This document shows positions 9,629-17,071 of a DNA stretch of 64,000 nt, piece by piece. Each line of letters begins with the position of its first letter. The stretch's first letter is position 1. The DNA is from Labilibaculum filiforme (GTDB taxonomy: Bacteria > Bacteroidota > Bacteroidia > Bacteroidales > Marinifilaceae). The position numbers and the translations under genes are program-made. The notes beneath the pieces are model-generated. The model did no database searches, was not told the DNA's origin, and was given only the letters and a program-made list of their open reading frames with translations. Location of the stretch: positions 62,001 to 126,000 of the forward strand of contig NZ_MVDD01000003.1 in NCBI RefSeq assembly GCF_002843315.1, in the 5' to 3' direction.

Positions 9629-10009
9629 ATGACTCTTAGAGAACGTAATTGGTCCTCAAAAACTATTCTTATTGCTGAAGATGTAGAATCCAATTTTCTT
9701 TTTTTGGAAGAAGTAATTCGTAAAACAGGAGCGGAAGTTCTTTGGGCTAAAAATGGTAAAGATGCTATTGAAATGTTTAACAACAATAAGGTGGACCTTA
9801 TTTTAATGGACATTCAAATGCCACTAATGAACGGTTTCGAGGCAACAAAAGTGATCAAGAAACAAAATCCTAAAATTCCAATTATTTCGCAAACAGCATA
9901 TGCCATGTCCGAAGACCGTGTGAAGAGTTTAAGTGCAGGTTGCGACGACTATATTGCAAAACCAATACCAAGCCAAAAATTGTTAGATTTACTCTCGATT
10001 TACATTTAA
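9629..10009 (+). CDS. Single-domain response regulator (CheY-like receiver)
   Basis: A 126-residue receiver domain with no output domain. The acidic pocket is Glu17/Asp18 (IAEDVESN), the phospho-acceptor is Asp61 in LILMDIQMPLMNGF, and the conserved switch residues are Thr89 (SQTAYA) and Lys111 (IAKPIP). Such stand-alone receivers relay phosphate to another protein or act by direct binding; the sequence resembles receivers normally attached to hybrid sensor kinases. It converges with the SpoIIE phosphatase gene (16-base gap), so it is not in that operon; a functional link to the phosphatase/hydrogenase-like system is possible but unsupported beyond proximity. Confidence 0.85.
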   Translation: MTLRERNWSSKTILIAEDVESNFLFLEEVIRKTGAEVLWAKNGKDAIEMFNNNKVDLILMDIQMPLMNGFEATKVIKKQNPKIPIISQTAYAMSEDRVKSLSAGCDDYIAKPIPSQKLLDLLSIYI

Positions 10010-10025: not shown

Positions 10026-11210
10026 CTAAATAAAGGTAAGTGTAACGTCTTTTAAAAACTTATCTTCAAGCAGACTTACTATTCTTTTCACCACTGTTCT
10101 TCTTATTTCCAATTCGATAGGTAGGCTAGGATCCTGGTGAGCAAAATTAATTCTTGTTCCCGAAATAATAGAAATTTTATCGCTTTGCAATAGGTAATGA
10201 ACAATCTGATCAGCAGGACCATCGCCCAAATTATAATCACTATTGTAATCCCCGAGAATACGGGAAACCTTACCAATTGTTAAAATACCTTCGGTAACCA
10301 AATTAATACTTTCCATATAGGAAGCTGGAGGAAGTTCCGGATCTGTAATTTTCATTCCAGCGGCAAATTTCAAATTTAATTCTCGTCCCAAAATTTCGGC
10401 AGTAGTTCCTCCGCAAATAATTTTTTTCCCTTTAAAATGATACACTCTCATGGCAAGTTCCGCATCCTTATCTTTTTCGAAGGGAGGTCCTGTACAAATT
10501 AAAAGTTTTCGAGGTTCTCTATAATAGATAACTCCTGCGCTAGTATCGTCCTTTAACTCATCCTGATCGTTTTTTGCAGCTCTTTTCACTAACTGTATTC
10601 CTAAATTACGAGCCGAAATATAAGGGGTCGATTTTACGATACTAGTAACATACTTTAAAGCACTCTCATGTCCCCATCCGAAAGGCAATTCTCTGCTTCC
10701 CATTCCCGACTGCATTATTCCATCGGACCAAAAAAGAATGCGATCCTCTTTCCGAGCTATAAATTCGCAGGTACGAAGTTCCTTTCCTTGATTTTCTTCG
10801 CTATCGAGCAAAATGGTTCTCCATCCCGGATCGAACACTTCTGAACCACGCATTACAACACACAAAGGATTATCGAATTCAATAATTCGAGTGGTTCCAT
10901 CAAATTCTATATCTATAATGGTAAAGGTGGAATAACTTACTTTTCGAACACTGCATACGGGGAGCGTATTCATGATTATTTCGGCAATAGTTTTTACATC
11001 TTTATGTTCTGCGGTAAAATTCATTGCCATAGATGCCGTTAAAGTTGCGAGAACATTTGCTTTCACACCACTTCCCATTCCATCGCTCAATACCGCAATA
11101 GTCCGGTTCTCTTCTTTAATTCGTTTCGAAAGAAAAACATCTCCACAAATCATTTCACCATGATGAAAAAGTTGCTGACAATCAATATCAATATGAAATT
11201 TTTCTTCCAT
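10026..11210 (-). CDS. SpoIIE/PP2C-type phosphatase with conserved C-terminal extension (copy B)
   Basis: A 394-residue cytoplasmic protein. The first ~230 residues form a SpoIIE-like PPM phosphatase: metal-binding acidic motifs at Asp24 (CGDVF), Asp43 (VLSDGMGSGVKA), Asp163 (WSDGIMQSG) and Asp221/222 (KDDTSAGV). Residues ~231-394 are an extra domain, starting RKLLICTGPPFEK with a GKKIICGGTTAEI block and ending in an FAHQDPSLPIELEIRRTV helix region; I cannot assign it. Its ATG overlaps the stop of the upstream hydrogenase-like gene by one base (TAATG), implying translational coupling. It closely resembles the copy at 13478-14662, of identical length. By family it dephosphorylates a serine/threonine-phosphorylated partner; no kinase or anti-sigma partner is encoded nearby. 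Confidence 0.85.
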   Translation of the reverse strand: MEEKFHIDIDCQQLFHHGEMICGDVFLSKRIKEENRTIAVLSDGMGSGVKANVLATLTASMAMNFTAEHKDVKTIAEIIMNTLPVCSVRKVSYSTFTIIDIEFDGTTRIIEFDNPLCVVMRGSEVFDPGWRTILLDSEENQGKELRTCEFIARKEDRILFWSDGIMQSGMGSRELPFGWGHESALKYVTSIVKSTPYISARNLGIQLVKRAAKNDQDELKDDTSAGVIYYREPRKLLICTGPPFEKDKDAELAMRVYHFKGKKIICGGTTAEILGRELNLKFAAGMKITDPELPPASYMESINLVTEGILTIGKVSRILGDYNSDYNLGDGPADQIVHYLLQSDKISIISGTRINFAHQDPSLPIELEIRRTVVKRIVSLLEDKFLKDVTLTFI

Positions 11211-13063
11211 TATTCGCCTTTCCCTTCTTCCCCCGAAGCATGGGATTTAATGATAGAACTCAATAATTTTTCCGTTTTAGAGGCACTTTCACCCAATAAA
11301 AATGCAATTTGTTGTACCGTCTGTAAATTCTCTTTTATTACCGCCCTTGCTCGTCCAATCACTTCTTCCCTTCTTACTTCCGGAGCATACAAATCGCGAA
11401 TAATACCTCCAACAATTTTATTCTTTTTAATAGTGAAAACCGAAACATTAAACAATCGATTACCAAAATGAACATCCTTATTCAAAATATCTTCTCCATT
11501 TAAAACTACCGTGGAAAAAAATTTGTGAAAACTGATCAATTTGGTTAAATCTGCATCCACTAATCCGGGAATAATATCATTCAGGATTCTTGCCTCTTCG
11601 CCCAGCAAATCAACGAAAGTTTTGTTTGCTTCAATCACTTTCAAGCTCTCATTAACAATTACTACTCCCGATGGAAGCTTCTGAAGCATAGCCGATACGG
11701 TTTCTGAAGCCTCCTGTGCTAAAATTCTTTCTTCGTTGGCAATTCGTTCCGACTCCTTTAAGGCTGCCTTTGTTTTTGTAAGCTGTAAATTTGTATTCCC
11801 CAGCTCTTTAATGTAGTTGTTCATGTTTTTGATGGTATAGGAAGAACACATCTCGTAATTGGCTAATCCTTGGCACTTTGCTATCGCAAATTCCCTGCAC
11901 GATTCATAACCGCAAGAACCACAACCCAATTGATCCTCAATTTTTCCTTTTCCCATCTCTACCAAAACATCTGATATTTCCTGTTCGTTTGGTATTGGTA
12001 ACTCTCTTCCCTTCGACTTAAAAGTCCGACTTAAATCAAGATCACTGTATTCTTCAATTTCTTTCCTCCAAATAGCTTCGTCGAGCGTTTTTAATCTTTT
12101 ACGAACGTATCGTATAACTTTCGAGCGACGAGAAAATTTTCGTCCACCTGGCGAAGTTCCCGGTCCCATGATACAACCTTCACAATAAAATAAATCCAGA
12201 TGCTGATATAAATCGTGTTGCGTGGTAAACTCATTTACCGACCTCAGAAAATTGTTTCGTCCTTCGGTACTAATAATTCCTCCATTTAACATGGATATAT
12301 CAATATCAGCAGCTTGAAACAGACCGTGACTAATTGGAAATAATCCGCCTAAGCGAGCAAAAGGAGGATCGAACTCCGAAAATTCAACTGAGTTTTCCGA
12401 AACTCCATACTCTTTAAATAACTTTCTTAATTCTGCAAAACTTAAAACTGCATGCACACATCCATCGGTACCATTAAATACTTTCACATCATCTTTACTG
12501 GCAACACAAGGCGATAAAGACACAATTTTAACATTTTTGCCATACTTTTTTCGTACGACTTTTGCCATAGCAATACCTGGAGGTACTATTGGTGCCAGAT
12601 TATCAACCAATCCGGAATGAAAATTCTCAACATTATTTACAACAGCTGGGCATTTTGTTGATATATAATATTTTCCATGAAAATTATCGAATAATTCCTT
12701 ATAGCGATAAGCCACCAAATCTGCTCCAAAGGCAGCCTCCACCACATAATCAAAACCCAAAGCCCGAATCATCCCAACAAAATTTCTAAAATCAAGAATA
12801 TCATCAAACTCTCCAGAAATACTAGGATCGCAAATTGCAACAACGGGCTCGGTTCCTGCCAACAATTGCTTCACCAAATCTTCCGAACTTCTATATTCTA
12901 TTGCATTTTGAGCACAAACGGTAACACAATTTCCACAACCAATACATCTGCTTTTTATAATATTTGCAAAATCATCCTTTATCTTAATTGCTTTGGCAGG
13001 ACATACCCGAATACATGTATAACTAAGATTACATTTATTCTTATTGGTTACAATTAGTGGCAT
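11210..13063 (-). CDS. [FeFe]-hydrogenase-like iron-sulfur PAS sensor protein (copy B, degenerate)
   Basis: 617 residues. Order: ferredoxin-like domain (Cys11, Cys17, Cys21, then Cys40/43/46/50); [FeFe]-hydrogenase large-subunit-like domain (~70-330); a four-cysteine Fe-S domain (Cys381, 384, 389, 406; CGSCGYESCREFA); a coiled linker (~415-455); a PAS domain (~455-560); a helical tail. H-cluster motifs are reduced: STKCPAVV (Cys138, Lys137 where catalytic enzymes have the proton-relay Cys), LSPCVASK (Cys186; Ser189 where CpI has Lys358) and FYCEGCIMGPG (Cys294, Cys297, spaced C-x2-C instead of C-x3-C). Residue 14 is Ser where a fourth ligand of the first ferredoxin cluster is expected. This resembles sensory/uncharacterised hydrogenase groups rather than H2-producing enzymes. 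It is translationally coupled to the phosphatase and lies 36 bases after the [2Fe-2S] gene. Confidence 0.85.
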   Translation of the reverse strand: MPLIVTNKNKCNLSYTCIRVCPAKAIKIKDDFANIIKSRCIGCGNCVTVCAQNAIEYRSSEDLVKQLLAGTEPVVAICDPSISGEFDDILDFRNFVGMIRALGFDYVVEAAFGADLVAYRYKELFDNFHGKYYISTKCPAVVNNVENFHSGLVDNLAPIVPPGIAMAKVVRKKYGKNVKIVSLSPCVASKDDVKVFNGTDGCVHAVLSFAELRKLFKEYGVSENSVEFSEFDPPFARLGGLFPISHGLFQAADIDISMLNGGIISTEGRNNFLRSVNEFTTQHDLYQHLDLFYCEGCIMGPGTSPGGRKFSRRSKVIRYVRKRLKTLDEAIWRKEIEEYSDLDLSRTFKSKGRELPIPNEQEISDVLVEMGKGKIEDQLGCGSCGYESCREFAIAKCQGLANYEMCSSYTIKNMNNYIKELGNTNLQLTKTKAALKESERIANEERILAQEASETVSAMLQKLPSGVVIVNESLKVIEANKTFVDLLGEEARILNDIIPGLVDADLTKLISFHKFFSTVVLNGEDILNKDVHFGNRLFNVSVFTIKKNKIVGGIIRDLYAPEVRREEVIGRARAVIKENLQTVQQIAFLLGESASKTEKLLSSIIKSHASGEEGKGE

Positions 13064-13099
13064 AATGAGGTGTTTTTTAGGATGGAAAGACAGTATTAG

Positions 13100-13351
13100 T
13101 TAAACGAGCCCAAAAACTCCGTTTAATATTTCAACTACATTATCTGGATCGACTTCCTCATGTAGTTCATCTCCAACTTTTAAAATTGGCCCTTTGGCAC
13201 AATTCCCTGTGCATAATTCCCCATGAAAGAACACTTTATCTTTCAACTTATTTTCTTCGAGAAAGGTATTAATCGTCTTTAAAGCCTTTCCGTTACCCCT
13301 TGAGAAACAAGAGCTTCCCAAACAAATGGTAATTTCGATTTTTTCAGCCAT
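13100..13351 (-). CDS. Small thioredoxin-fold [2Fe-2S] ferredoxin (NuoE/HydA-associated type)
   Basis: An 83-residue protein with Cys10 and Cys15 (CLGSSC) and Cys47 and Cys51 (CTGNC), the C-x4-C...C-x3-C pattern of thioredoxin-like [2Fe-2S] proteins related to the C-terminal half of NuoE. These carry electrons to or from larger redox proteins. It lies between the two hydrogenase-like/phosphatase modules, 36 bases upstream of copy B and 126 bases after the copy A phosphatase, on the same strand. I infer it delivers electrons to, or senses redox with, the hydrogenase-like proteins. Firmicute hydrogenase clusters with a similar small protein, PAS hydrogenase and PP2C phosphatase (the hfs cluster of Thermoanaerobacterium, from memory) support this. 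Confidence 0.85.
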   Translation of the reverse strand: MAEKIEITICLGSSCFSRGNGKALKTINTFLEENKLKDKVFFHGELCTGNCAKGPILKVGDELHEEVDPDNVVEILNGVFGLV

Positions 13352-13477
13352 TTAGTTATTGTCTTTATTATCTGTTTCATGAGGATTGTTACTTACTTCC
13401 AATTCACCAATAAAACTAATCACCAAATGGAAACTTAATCAACAATGCCCCATGTTACATATGGGTTAGATTTCATT

Positions 13478-14662
13478 TTAAATATAACTAAGATCTACTT
13501 CTTTTAAAAACTTTTCCTCTAGTAGTGTAACAATATTCTTTACTACTGTTCTACGTATCTCTAACTCCATTGGTAATTTAGGATCTTGATGTGCAATATT
13601 GATGCCCGTACCATTCACAATAAATATTTTATCGCTTTCCAAAAGAACTCGAACAATTCGATCGGCAGGACCATACCGAAAGGAAGAATTTTGCTTGTAG
13701 TTCTTAAGTAAACGATGTACTTTTCCTAAAGTCAGTATTCCTTCTGTGACCAAATCGACTCCGGTAATATAAGATATTGGTGGCAATTCTGCATCTGCAG
13801 ATTGTAGTTCCATTTTAATGGGACGATGCAATTCTCGAGAAATAATTCCCGCTGTAGTTCCTCCACATATAATCTTCTTTCCCTTAAACTCGGTTACTTG
13901 TTTAGCCAGTTGACTATCCTTCGACTTTTCATAGGGCGGACCGGTACAAATCAGCAAGTTACGTGGCTCCCGAAAATAAAGTACCCCACAAGAGGTATCA
14001 TCTTTGGGTTTATTGCCGTAGTTCGCACATGCTCTATTAACCACTGCTTCGGAAAGCTGTCGCGCCGACAAGGAATTTTGTTTTCTGATCAAAGCTTTTA
14101 CAAAAGCATCTAAATTTTCCAATCCCCAACCAAAAGGCATTCGTATTGCGCCCATTCCCGAATTGGTTACTCCATCGGAACAAAATACGATTCTATCCTC
14201 TTTCTGTGCTTTAAAGCGATAAGAATAGAGTATCTTCCCCTTGTTATGATCTCCTTCGAGAAGCAACTCCTCGCATTCTGGTGCCAGATTCTCTTCTCCT
14301 CGTAAAATAAGACATTCTGGATTATCGTAACGGATGATTCGAGTTTCCCCATCGCACTCAATATCAACAATAGTAAAAGTGGAATAACTAGCTTTTCGCT
14401 TGCTGCAAACCGGAAGTGTCTGCATGATAATCTCGGCTGCTTTACGAATATCCTTGTTCACCTTCATGTAATTCAAAATCATCGAAGCCGTTAAGGTACC
14501 CAACACATTTGCTTTTACGCCACTTCCCAATCCATCCGATAAAACAAGAATGGTTCGTCCCTCCTCTTTTATTTTTCGCGACATAAATACATCTCCACAA
14601 ATAGACTGTCCTTCGAAGCTTTTTTGCTGGCATTCTACTTCTATGTAATAATCAGATGTCAT
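13478..14662 (-). CDS. SpoIIE/PP2C-type phosphatase with conserved C-terminal extension (copy A)
   Basis: The ATG at 14662 gives 394 residues, exactly the length of its paralogue at 10026-11210; the longer reading would start at a TTG at 14668. The PPM metal motifs are ICGDVFMS, VLSDGLGSGVKA, CSDGVTNSGMG and KDDTSCGV. The unassigned C-terminal domain (RNLLICTGPPYEKSKD, GKKIICGGTTAGI, NIAHQDPKLPMELEIRRTV) is conserved with copy B, so it is under selection. It starts nine bases after the stop of the copy A hydrogenase-like gene, forming a coupled pair. Expected role: serine/threonine phosphatase output of an iron-sulfur/PAS sensor. The direct target is unknown. Confidence 0.85.
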   Translation of the reverse strand: MTSDYYIEVECQQKSFEGQSICGDVFMSRKIKEEGRTILVLSDGLGSGVKANVLGTLTASMILNYMKVNKDIRKAAEIIMQTLPVCSKRKASYSTFTIVDIECDGETRIIRYDNPECLILRGEENLAPECEELLLEGDHNKGKILYSYRFKAQKEDRIVFCSDGVTNSGMGAIRMPFGWGLENLDAFVKALIRKQNSLSARQLSEAVVNRACANYGNKPKDDTSCGVLYFREPRNLLICTGPPYEKSKDSQLAKQVTEFKGKKIICGGTTAGIISRELHRPIKMELQSADAELPPISYITGVDLVTEGILTLGKVHRLLKNYKQNSSFRYGPADRIVRVLLESDKIFIVNGTGINIAHQDPKLPMELEIRRTVVKNIVTLLEEKFLKEVDLSYI

Positions 14663-14671
14663 AAGCAACTA

Positions 14672-16387
14672 TTAATCCTGCGATAAACTATAAAATTCGA
14701 CAATAGAATTCAGCATTTCCTCTGTTTCGGAAGCATTCTCTCCTAATAAATATGCAATTTTTTGAACGGTCTCTAAGTTTTTCTTATTTACCGATTTAGC
14801 TCTTGATATTACCTCTTCGCGCTGAATAAAAGGTTGCGACATATCTCGAAGAATAGCTCCTACAATTTTGTGTTTATGAATACTAAAAATAGTAATATGA
14901 AACATTTTATTTCCAAAACGAATGTCTTTCTCCAAATTATCAATACCAGTAGAAAGTGCCGATGAAAATAGCTTATAAAAAGGAGCTATTTTATGCAAAT
15001 CGGCATCGACCAAACCAGGAATGGCCTCGTACAATTCTTCAATCTCAGATCCCATCATTTTGGCAAAACTCAAATTCGCTTCGCGTATTTTTAATTCCTG
15101 ATTTACGATTACAACACCCGAAGGAATCTTACTCAATAAAGCTGCCGACTTATCGAAGGCAATTTTACGCATGTAGGAAACACACATATTGGGCTCCGAC
15201 CGATCCTCAAGCATTGCCGCAGCAAACTCTTTACAGCTATTATATCCACATCCCCCGCAATTCATCTCATCTTTTTCAGAATATTTTCCAATCCTACTAA
15301 GCGCCTCCTTAATTCGATTTGAAGAATGACTGTTTTTTTTGACTGCCTCGATAGAATTAAAATTGCGTTCCAAAGAAAAATCCGTTTCAATCTCAAATCC
15401 TTCCTCCTTATTCTGCCTTTTTATTACCTCTAAACGCTTTATTGCGGTAGAGTACGATTTATCGGTTCCCGGACCATTTACACATCCTCCGCTACAGGCT
15501 AATAACTCTAAGAATAGAATATCCGACTTTTTATACTTATCTAAATCCTTCAAAACCGATTGAATAGTACTTATTCCCGAAAATGTCATACAAACAGCAT
15601 CGGTTGCCGTTGTATTATTCTTAACGCCCATAATCATGCCGCCATCAATTGGGTACAAAGCCCCTTTCCCTGCTTTTCCAGGCACAAATACCTCCGCATT
15701 TTTTTCTTCTCCAAACAAGTAAGGATCTATATTTTCCTCTTCAAACCATTTTCTTATGTCGGAGAACGTAAGTACTGCATCTAGCAATTCGGGAAATTCA
15801 TCGCTCTCTGTTTTTTTGGCAATGCATGGTCCTATAAATACAACTGGCGTACCTTCGCCATAAGTTTTTTTAAGATATTTCGCATGTGTTAATAATGGTG
15901 ACAAAAAGGGCGTAATGTTATTTCTATATTGCGGATAATGCTTACAAATCATCTCTACCACCGAAGGACAGGCAGAAGAAATATACACTCCACTCTCATT
16001 ATTTGCTATAAATTTAGACACTTGCTTCGAAACTTCCTGTGCACCCAAAGCAGTTTCGGATACATGAGCAAAACCCAATGCCTGCAAGGCAAACACCATT
16101 TGCTGATCGGACAAATTTGGAAACTCGGTTACAAAAGAAGGAGCGAGAGAAACTATCACATTCTTATTTCGATGCAACAAGCTCTTCACTTTTTTTACAT
16201 CATCGCGTAACTTTTTTGCCGAAACCGGACAAACAAGAACACAAGCTCCACAATAAATGCAGTCGCTATGAAGAATTTGAGCCGCATTATTCAGCACTTT
16301 TATGGCTTTTAATTCGCATTCCCGAATGCATTTATAACAATCCTGACAATCGTTTTGCTCGGTATAAATCGGTTTTAAAATATCCAT
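14672..16387 (-). CDS. [FeFe]-hydrogenase-like iron-sulfur PAS sensor protein (copy A)
   Basis: 571 residues with the same order as copy B: two complete [4Fe-4S] ferredoxin motifs (Cys14/17/20/24 and 43/46/49/53), hydrogenase-like domain (~70-320), four-cysteine Fe-S domain (Cys377, 380, 385, 402; NCGGCGYNSCKEFA), PAS (~410-510) and helical tail. Here all four H-cluster cysteine positions are present: Cys140 (SSACPSVV), Cys188 (GPCIAKK, with Lys191 at the CpI Lys358 position), Cys298 and Cys302 (LLACSGGCVNGPG). The proton-relay cysteine before Cys140 is Ala139, as in slow or sensory hydrogenases. It could thus hold an H-cluster if HydEFG maturases exist elsewhere; none are in the window. First gene of the operon, preceded by AGGAG seven bases from the ATG, a Shine-Dalgarno unusual for this phylum. 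Confidence 0.85.
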   Translation of the reverse strand: MDILKPIYTEQNDCQDCYKCIRECELKAIKVLNNAAQILHSDCIYCGACVLVCPVSAKKLRDDVKKVKSLLHRNKNVIVSLAPSFVTEFPNLSDQQMVFALQALGFAHVSETALGAQEVSKQVSKFIANNESGVYISSACPSVVEMICKHYPQYRNNITPFLSPLLTHAKYLKKTYGEGTPVVFIGPCIAKKTESDEFPELLDAVLTFSDIRKWFEEENIDPYLFGEEKNAEVFVPGKAGKGALYPIDGGMIMGVKNNTTATDAVCMTFSGISTIQSVLKDLDKYKKSDILFLELLACSGGCVNGPGTDKSYSTAIKRLEVIKRQNKEEGFEIETDFSLERNFNSIEAVKKNSHSSNRIKEALSRIGKYSEKDEMNCGGCGYNSCKEFAAAMLEDRSEPNMCVSYMRKIAFDKSAALLSKIPSGVVIVNQELKIREANLSFAKMMGSEIEELYEAIPGLVDADLHKIAPFYKLFSSALSTGIDNLEKDIRFGNKMFHITIFSIHKHKIVGAILRDMSQPFIQREEVISRAKSVNKKNLETVQKIAYLLGENASETEEMLNSIVEFYSLSQD

Positions 16388-17071
16388 ATTATTCTCCTCG
16401 TATTATTCTGAATAGTAGCCAATATTCCTTTTTAACTTTTCGACCTTTCGTCCTACAAATCTCTTAATTTATGTTTTAGATAGATGATTTAGAAAGCTAT
16501 TTTAGAACACATTAATACTATTCATATGTATTTTAAATAATTCGCAATAGACTGCGTAAAATCTAAAAAGACGAACTTTTCCTACATCCTAACAGATACT
16601 GTTCATAACAGCATAACCTCTTGCGTAATATAACCAATGTCCTTCGTGACCAATTCAGTTTATTCGTCAACATTACCTATCGTAACATCACAGAAAAGAT
16701 ATTGGTTCTGTAGAATACTAAAATCAGCTTTACGGGTGAGAAAATCCATTAAAAAAAAAATCAATAATTCGTATCTACTAAGTTCTACGAGTAATATCTT
16801 GTCGTATTTTTTTATAGTTAGCTGAAATACAGCTTGTTTTATAATTGTTAATTACCCGTTATTAATTTCTAATTACTTAATTATTGATATTAACAGATGA
16901 GCCTTCGATTTTTTATTTTAAATTTCGCCTAAATATACTTATTGAAAAAGCCTTTCTCCTCTATCATAATTTAGATCGATTATAGATTTCAATTCACTAT
17001 ATTATGATTACATTTAAACTCTTACACTTACAAGCTAAATAAGTCTTTCAGAAAACCTTATTACTATAAAT
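16388..17071. other. 684-bp intergenic region upstream of the hydrogenase-like operon
   Basis: AT-rich divergent spacer. It must hold the promoter of the minus-strand hydrogenase-like/phosphatase operon and that of the plus-strand small membrane protein. The only clear element is a consensus AGGAG (plus-strand CTCCT at 16392-16396) before the copy A start. A 62-codon frame at 16637-16825 has no recognisable features and I do not call it. No tRNA or repeat was seen. Confidence 0.5.

Follow-up and report, generated by a model that had tools for sequence, protein, structure and literature searches.

The 64,000-nucleotide window analysed here, from contig 3 of the 5.2-Mb Labilibaculum filiforme genome, contains five minus-strand genes that form two paralogous pairs (Table 1). 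Each pair, or module, encodes a hydrogenase-like sensor protein (HydA in module A, HydB in module B) and a SpoIIE-type PP2C phosphatase (PhosA and PhosB), and a gene for a [2Fe-2S] thioredoxin-fold protein lies between them. Our preferred reading, to which we assign a probability of about 0.5, is that the two sensors are an intact and a degenerate member of one pair, in which HydA reads H2, HydB reads another cue and similar phosphatases act on a shared target. With one sensor intact and the other degenerate yet conserved, hydrogen and a second cue would seem to feed one type of protein switch.

H-cluster motifs in HydA and HydB

The H-cluster signature of HydA is intact, with C140 in L1, C188 and K191 in L2 and C298-X3-C302 in L3, and its C-terminal cluster (C377/C380/C385/C402) has the spacing Cx2Cx4Cx16C. 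K358 and CX3C are both present in the HydA-type proteins of all 13 tandem loci, and HydA is predicted to bind H2 at a diiron site. HydB retains C138, C186 and the C-terminal cluster (C381/C384/C389/C406), has S189 at the position of Lys358, and shows CX2C in L3, with Y293 in the place of Cys499 and C294 and C297 kept; S14 replaces the second Cys of its first ferredoxin cluster. The importance given here to Lys358 and the Cys499 numbering are assumptions of ours.

The double change extends to all HydB-type proteins of a named scan, from which the best 80 of 397 loci were kept as the source of the 80-locus counts below. Lys is never found at the Lys358 position (0/80; Ser in 28, Ala in 33, Thr in 13, Asn in 5, His in 1), and Cys is never found four residues before the bridging Cys (0/80; Tyr in 69, Phe in 10, Leu in 1), the -4 position on which the L3 counts are based in an ungapped reading; MAFFT places a gap in L3, and counting by column puts the HydA Ala at the column of HydB Y293. 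The residue after the -4 position is Cys in 67 of the 80, Asn in 10 and Asp in 3. C300, C355, C503 and K359 are present in all 80 proteins, as are complete second ferredoxin and C-terminal Cx2Cx4Cx16C clusters, and 43 have lost the second Cys of the first ferredoxin cluster. Thirty further HydB-type loci, partly from the same genomes, and nine of nine distant ones show the same double loss. In the HydB-type protein of genome G424 the L1, L2 and both L3 cysteines are gone, and it still precedes its phosphatase.

Several groups of hydrogenases served as controls, with group names that rest on motif, size, neighbours and recall and are not HydDB classifier calls. Among neighbouring C1 proteins, K358 is present in all 38 full rows (one fragment was dropped) and Cys at the -4 position in only 31 (Ser in five, Gly in two). 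Both residues are present in group B (4/4), group D (9/9) and the other C-type rows (18/18). Group-A-like HydA proteins, from which one misaligned fused open reading frame (ORF; L202) was dropped, have the -4 Cys in 63 of 63 scorable rows and Lys in 53 (Arg in six, Asn in two, Met and Ala in one each), which weakens K358 as an absolute mark of a hydrogenase; the ten deviating rows are group A HydA proteins of divergent operons (for example L158 1593-3305). Given these controls, it is the double loss that marks HydB, either change alone being also seen elsewhere. Sensory enzymes are described, in the accessible part of one account, as retaining the H-cluster cysteines and hydrogen-bonding residues (PMC10055695), unlike HydB.

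The best-surviving alternative is that both proteins hold an H-cluster, HydB by way of a rearranged CX2C site, and that together they cover two H2 affinities or speeds. We regard this as unlikely. It would account for the retention of C300, C355, C503 and K359 throughout the HydB-type proteins, for the C1 neighbours that combine CX2C with K358 (7/38) and for the presence of HydF in every one of the 27 tested genomes from the named loci, all of them HydB carriers, and in four of five HydB-type carriers without hydA in the genome sample. It is harder to reconcile with a Lys358 position that never holds Lys and accepts substitutes as unlike as Ser, Ala, Thr, Asn and His, or with the G424 protein, which stands before its phosphatase without the L1, L2 and L3 cysteines. 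The genome-wide look-up of HydF proposed in the initial annotation found it in L. filiforme as well. G420, a HydB carrier without HydF, was left unused; it has a group-A-like hydrogenase, and HydF is probably missing from the assembly.

Gene neighbourhood and coupling of sensors to phosphatases

The five-gene layout put forward in the initial annotation is borne out by the ORF list, Pfam and alignments, and the equal length of the phosphatases and shared domain order of the large proteins by the ORF list and Pfam. The junctions were also correct when re-read from the sequence: the phosB start overlaps the hydB stop by one base (TAATG), and nine bases separate the hydA stop from the phosA ATG. 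PhosA has 394 residues counted from ATG 14662; the ORF list gives 396 from TTG 14668. Pfam detects SpoIIE in both phosphatases (41 and 52.8 bits, cut-off 25), 2Fe-2S_thioredx in the 83-aa protein, and Fe_hyd_lg_C, Fer4-type, FeS (PF04060) and PAS_8 in both large proteins. FeS of HydA is above its cut-off; PAS_8 is slightly below the 21.8-bit cut-off in HydA (20.8 bits) and above it in HydB (22.8 bits). The acidic metal-binding residues of the phosphatases (D24, D43, D163, D221, D222) are present, and are kept in 14 of 14 phosA-like and 73 of 73 scorable phosB-like proteins (one is truncated). The C-terminal ~160 aa of PhosA have no Pfam match, and those of PhosB (~165 aa; window 10029-10523, minus strand) likewise gave none when the whole protein was scanned; no solved structure matches them better than at E 1.1.

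Table 1 Features of the locus, with positions in the window
Feature	Position	Strand	Length	Description
hydA	14672..16387	-	571 aa	2x[4Fe-4S] ferredoxin part, [FeFe]-hydrogenase H-domain, C-terminal [4Fe-4S] domain, PAS, helical tail
phosA	13478..14662	-	394 aa	SpoIIE-type PP2C phosphatase; PP2C acidic residues present
[2Fe-2S] thioredoxin-fold protein	13100..13351	-	83 aa	NuoE/HydC C-terminal-like; first gene of module B
hydB	11210..13063	-	617 aa	Domain order as in hydA
phosB	10026..11210	-	394 aa	SpoIIE-type PP2C phosphatase
Conserved block 5' of hydA	16456..16539	-	84 bp	Candidate promoter/operator

The coupling of sensor to phosphatase suggested in the initial annotation is upheld by neighbourhood: a phosphatase gene lies directly 3' of the HydB-type gene in 75 of 80 loci, and in G433 hydrogenase, PAS and SpoIIE domains share a single chain (L092 292-4077, with four PAS stretches by Pfam). 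A second long chain with a hydrogenase domain (G427; L093 1568-5590) is judged a fusion by length and partial alignment only. With phosA nine bases downstream, HydA fits the phosphatase linkage of group C3. HydB has the C-terminal cluster, PAS domain and phosphatase link of that group and does not fit its H-cluster signature; it would thus work like a C3 module, and we do not file it as an H2 sensor. The thioredoxin-fold gene belongs to module B: in 65 of 78 loci a thioredoxin-like gene lies directly 5' of the HydB-type gene. A modules that stand alone elsewhere carry their own copy.

HydB loci also hold other hydrogenase genes. Group A HydA is encoded in 50 of 80. An operon in the order HydC-HydB-HydA-C1 sensor runs divergently from the B module in 38 loci, and the C1 proteins of L084 and L189 (the latter cut by the locus end) have a HisKA domain. 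In eight loci the B module is followed on the same strand by genes for DRTGG, RsbW-like ATPase and group D sensor proteins. A second sensor hydrogenase gene (C3, C1 or D type) occurs in 56 of the 60 HydB loci for which 5.9 kb or more of upstream sequence is available (exceptions L136, L155, L165 and L179), and in 59 of all 80, many of which are cut by contig ends; a figure of 44/44 for loci with both flanks complete is true but filter-dependent, and the wider count is preferred. Beside single A modules a group-B-like hydrogenase gene adjoins in four of five maps, the match in the fifth (G415) lying about 2 kb downstream. No catalytic hydrogenase gene follows a phosphatase in the window locus. 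The L. filiforme genome has six PF02906 matches: two of group A, one group-B-like, hydA, hydB and one group-D-like sensor that adjoins HydABC together with DRTGG and RsbW-like ATPase genes.

Phosphatases without a hydrogenase, which the initial annotation named as evidence against coupling, do occur. Among 14 phylum-sample loci, fetched from 16 other genomes matched (G156 and G333 were left out), 11 are hydrogenase-linked A-type pairs, nine of them near HydABC-like genes; in the other three (G006, G011 and G016) a PAS-only gene stands beside the phosphatase, in genomes without a PF02906 match or HydF. The PAS-only loci consist of a thioredoxin-like gene, a 168-aa PAS gene and a PP2C phosphatase gene (L095 7521-9470, L096 6512-8455, L097 6751-8694). 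Their gene content would suit a general redox switch, in which the thioredoxin-like ferredoxin and the iron-sulfur domains feed the PAS domain and the hydrogenase fold is a scaffold in both copies, as would the NfnAB-like flavoprotein gene directly 5' of the HydB-type gene in G420 (L086 2926-5193). We nevertheless find this explanation rather improbable in view of the H-cluster signature kept by the HydA-type proteins of all 13 tandem loci and of the group-B-like hydrogenase genes that accompany single A modules.

The check for SpoIIAA/anti-sigma-like partners succeeded for the genome, which has four STAS matches (two in small ORFs) and RsbW-like ORFs, and failed beside the locus, where no STAS protein or kinase was found among 20 ORFs of at least 80 aa at 5-21 kb (by eye; Pfam on six). 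The RsbW-like ATPase gene 3' of the phosphatase in eight loci is a lead to the kinase side. Upstream of hydA, the 84-bp block is conserved in an alignment of seven tandem loci; its strict pattern occurs in seven of 12 tandem upstreams and none of three single-module upstreams, and its core once exactly in the genome, where a regulon search returned just the hydA site and one site with three mismatches. A REC-only response regulator gene (window 9629-10009, plus strand), convergent with phosB, recurs in 11 of the 13 tandem loci of the named scan, which may be mere synteny.

Lineages and distribution of the two modules

PhosA and PhosB are 58% identical (394 columns), and HydA and HydB 38% over the whole protein. 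By domain, the two sensors share 43% of residues in the ferredoxin part (28/65), 27% in the H-domain (79/288), 37% in the FeS domain (19/52) and 52% in the PAS domain and tail (81/156). The hydrogenase-part tree unites 17 hydA-type rows in a clade with support of 100/100. Its 18 HydB-type rows likewise group together (100/99), and the C1-type proteins of G430 and G424 are their sisters (100/97). An approximately unbiased (AU) test rejects placing tandem hydA with HydB (p = 4.8e-7). The initial annotation had spoken of a doubled module; the tree and the AU test rule out a recent tandem duplication, and modules A and B are instead two old, anciently diverged lineages that stand side by side here and also occur apart.

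The A and B types of the hydrogenases thus separate in their tree. The phosphatase tree is less clear and groups tandem phosA with B-type phosphatases (96/91). A partner swap of phosA, suggested by this tree, is not claimed (AU p 0.129 with all phosA rows), nor is the p value of 0.0084 obtained without the G413 row, a row set picked after inspection of the tree. The PAS tree keeps A with A, but weakly and with unsettled bootstrap.

Both modules are under purifying selection, and B evolves more slowly than A. The nonsynonymous distance (dN) to the nearest relative is 0.031 for hydB and 0.013 for phosB, and 0.118 for hydA and 0.104 for phosA; computable ratios of dN to synonymous distance (dS) range from 0.011 to 0.103 across the five genes, with dS saturated in many pairs.

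A 40-genome set comprised the L. filiforme genome and eight others of the genus, 15 others of the family and 16 others of the order. The five-gene tandem is present in L. filiforme, in seven of the eight genus genomes (the eighth, G399, is 63% complete) and in four of the 15 family genomes. Of the other family genomes, one (G413) carries the two modules on separate contigs, four have A only and six have neither. Among the 16 order genomes, five have the B type only and two have single long chains holding the hydrogenase domain. In the named scan the tandem occurs in 13 of 80 loci, from Labilibaculum, Marinifilum, Ancylomarina and a Marinifilaceae metagenome-assembled genome. Recurring in this way across genus, family and named loci, the five-gene order is not due to chance. 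HydB-type proteins reach further. In a sample of 393 genomes of the order, 173 give matches at E <= 1e-100; in 118 of them the match has E < 1e-180, and the others resemble C1-type relatives in score range and alignment span. Single clusters, which the initial annotation associated with Firmicutes, are not confined to that group; single modules are frequent in Bacteroidales. In G740, two HydB-type modules lie divergently around a 758-aa gene (L248 2908-10532).

These distributions bear on two further explanations. HydB might be a non-sensing heterodimer partner of HydA, or of a C1 or D sensor elsewhere, that sets a baseline; the 52% identity of the PAS domains and tails and the second sensor gene near HydB in 56 of the 60 loci whose upstream sequence is long enough are compatible with this. 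We think it improbable: a phosphatase of its own adjoins HydB in 75 of 80 loci, each module is found without the other in some genomes, and the C1 partners end in a histidine kinase and not in this PAS tail. Simple redundancy, with a leftover paralogue that has no separate role, has paralogy and nothing beyond in its favour and is very improbable given the slower evolution of module B and the spread of HydB-type proteins through the order.

Proposed mechanism and relation to known systems

In the reading that we prefer, module A would be an ordinary group C3 H2 sensor, with HydA carrying the H-cluster. Oxidation of H2 would shift the iron-sulfur chain and C-terminal [4Fe-4S] domain of HydA to another redox state, and the PAS domain and helical tail would pass this change to PhosA; that the phosphatases are activated, and in which direction the signal runs, we infer. 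HydB would have the same fold and tail, but a pocket no longer able to hold a standard diiron site; it retains three H-cluster cysteines, a fourth in shifted position and every cluster of its C-terminal domain. Its cue is most likely something other than H2, such as the redox state of a ferredoxin or [2Fe-2S] protein, and the obvious candidate electron donor is its own thioredoxin-fold ferredoxin. Both inputs would probably meet at one phosphoserine/threonine target that tunes hydrogen or fermentation genes, because the PAS tails and phosphatases are far more alike than the H-domains. A phosphoserine substrate would fit, since among solved structures the phosphatase comes closest to RsbX, the sole hit in a profile search (E 2.8e-5, residues 2-81). 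Of the two-channel redox or H2 sensor envisaged in the initial annotation, the two pairs with PP2C output stand; two simple H2 channels are unlikely, the H-cluster signature of copy B being partly lost.

Several observations weigh against this reading. K358 is not absolute even in catalytic enzymes, as the group-A-like HydA proteins show (10/63 deviate). Seven of 38 neighbouring C1 sensors have CX2C, with Ser or Gly at -4, yet keep K358, so CX2C alone need not abolish the H-cluster, and HydB may simply have a shifted ligand. Five of the 80 HydB loci have no adjacent phosphatase. Finally, a single clade of all phosA survives the AU test (p 0.129), and homogenisation of the phosphatases through a shared output is unproven.

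A broader proposal can be made more tentatively. HydB-type proteins could be widespread Bacteroidales pseudo-hydrogenase sensors that have given up the diiron site but retain a cysteine-poor, possibly site-differentiated iron-sulfur cluster, with Cys, Asn or Asp as its fourth ligand. Alongside an intact H2 sensor they would signal a second variable, such as O2, NO or the potential of ferredoxin, through the same phosphatase output, and the cell would compute a ratio of H2 to this other redox signal.

Single modules of this kind are known. Group C3 is defined as phosphatase-linked, and the accessible part of the HydDB description lists a single putative sensor (PMC5037454); HydA resembles it in hydrogenase domain, C-terminal cluster, PAS domain and downstream PP2C phosphatase, whereas here, by an assignment made outside the HydDB classifier, two lineages stand in tandem and one has a degenerate signature. 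In Ruminococcus albus, a putative sensory hydrogenase with a PAS domain and a putative Ser/Thr phosphatase belong to a proposed H2-responsive operon (PMC6776011). The H-cluster/PAS sensor and phosphatase are alike, but that account, as far as available, describes one module co-transcribed with a catalytic hydrogenase, and the window locus has no adjoining one. In the Thermoanaerobacterium hfsABCD operon, hfsB (hydrogenase-PAS) is followed by hfsC (a serine phosphatase homologue) and the catalytic hfsD (PMC5707799, PMC11837493), and deletion of hfsB, a HydS homologue, changes fermentation (PMC5707799). The hfsB-hfsC-hfsD order is that of hydA, phosA and the group-B-like gene in the single A modules of related genera; HfsA is not HydB-type by any test made here, and the available parts of those reports describe no tandem.

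HydA also shares with two characterised sensory proteins, as far as their accounts are available, the Cx2Cx4Cx16C C-terminal cluster, a group C PAS domain and altered C299/M353 positions (Ala139 and Gly in HydA); both have a working H-cluster, whereas HydB lacks K358 and CX3C. A precedent for sensory-group proteins without recognisable H-cluster motifs comes from group C1 of Hydrogenedentota, in which, in the portion of the study available, such motifs are scarcely findable (PMC11406978). Those proteins are of histidine-kinase type and from another phylum, and that portion does not analyse a paired intact sensor. RsbX/SpoIIE partner switching shares the PP2C domain; the window phosphatases differ in their extra C-terminal ~160 aa and in having no STAS/anti-sigma gene beside the locus. 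A search of the open-access literature turned up no paper on C3 pairs in tandem or on proteins of HydB type, although such papers may exist.

Even for single phosphatase-linked systems there is no settled account of how fermenters sense H2 and change their products. A Pfam or group C label alone is no evidence of H2 sensing, considering that HydB-type matches at E < 1e-180 occur in 118 of the 393 genomes sampled from the order. The conserved pair of an intact and a degenerate sensor offers a natural control, in which comparison of the two would show the part of the response that needs H2 chemistry.

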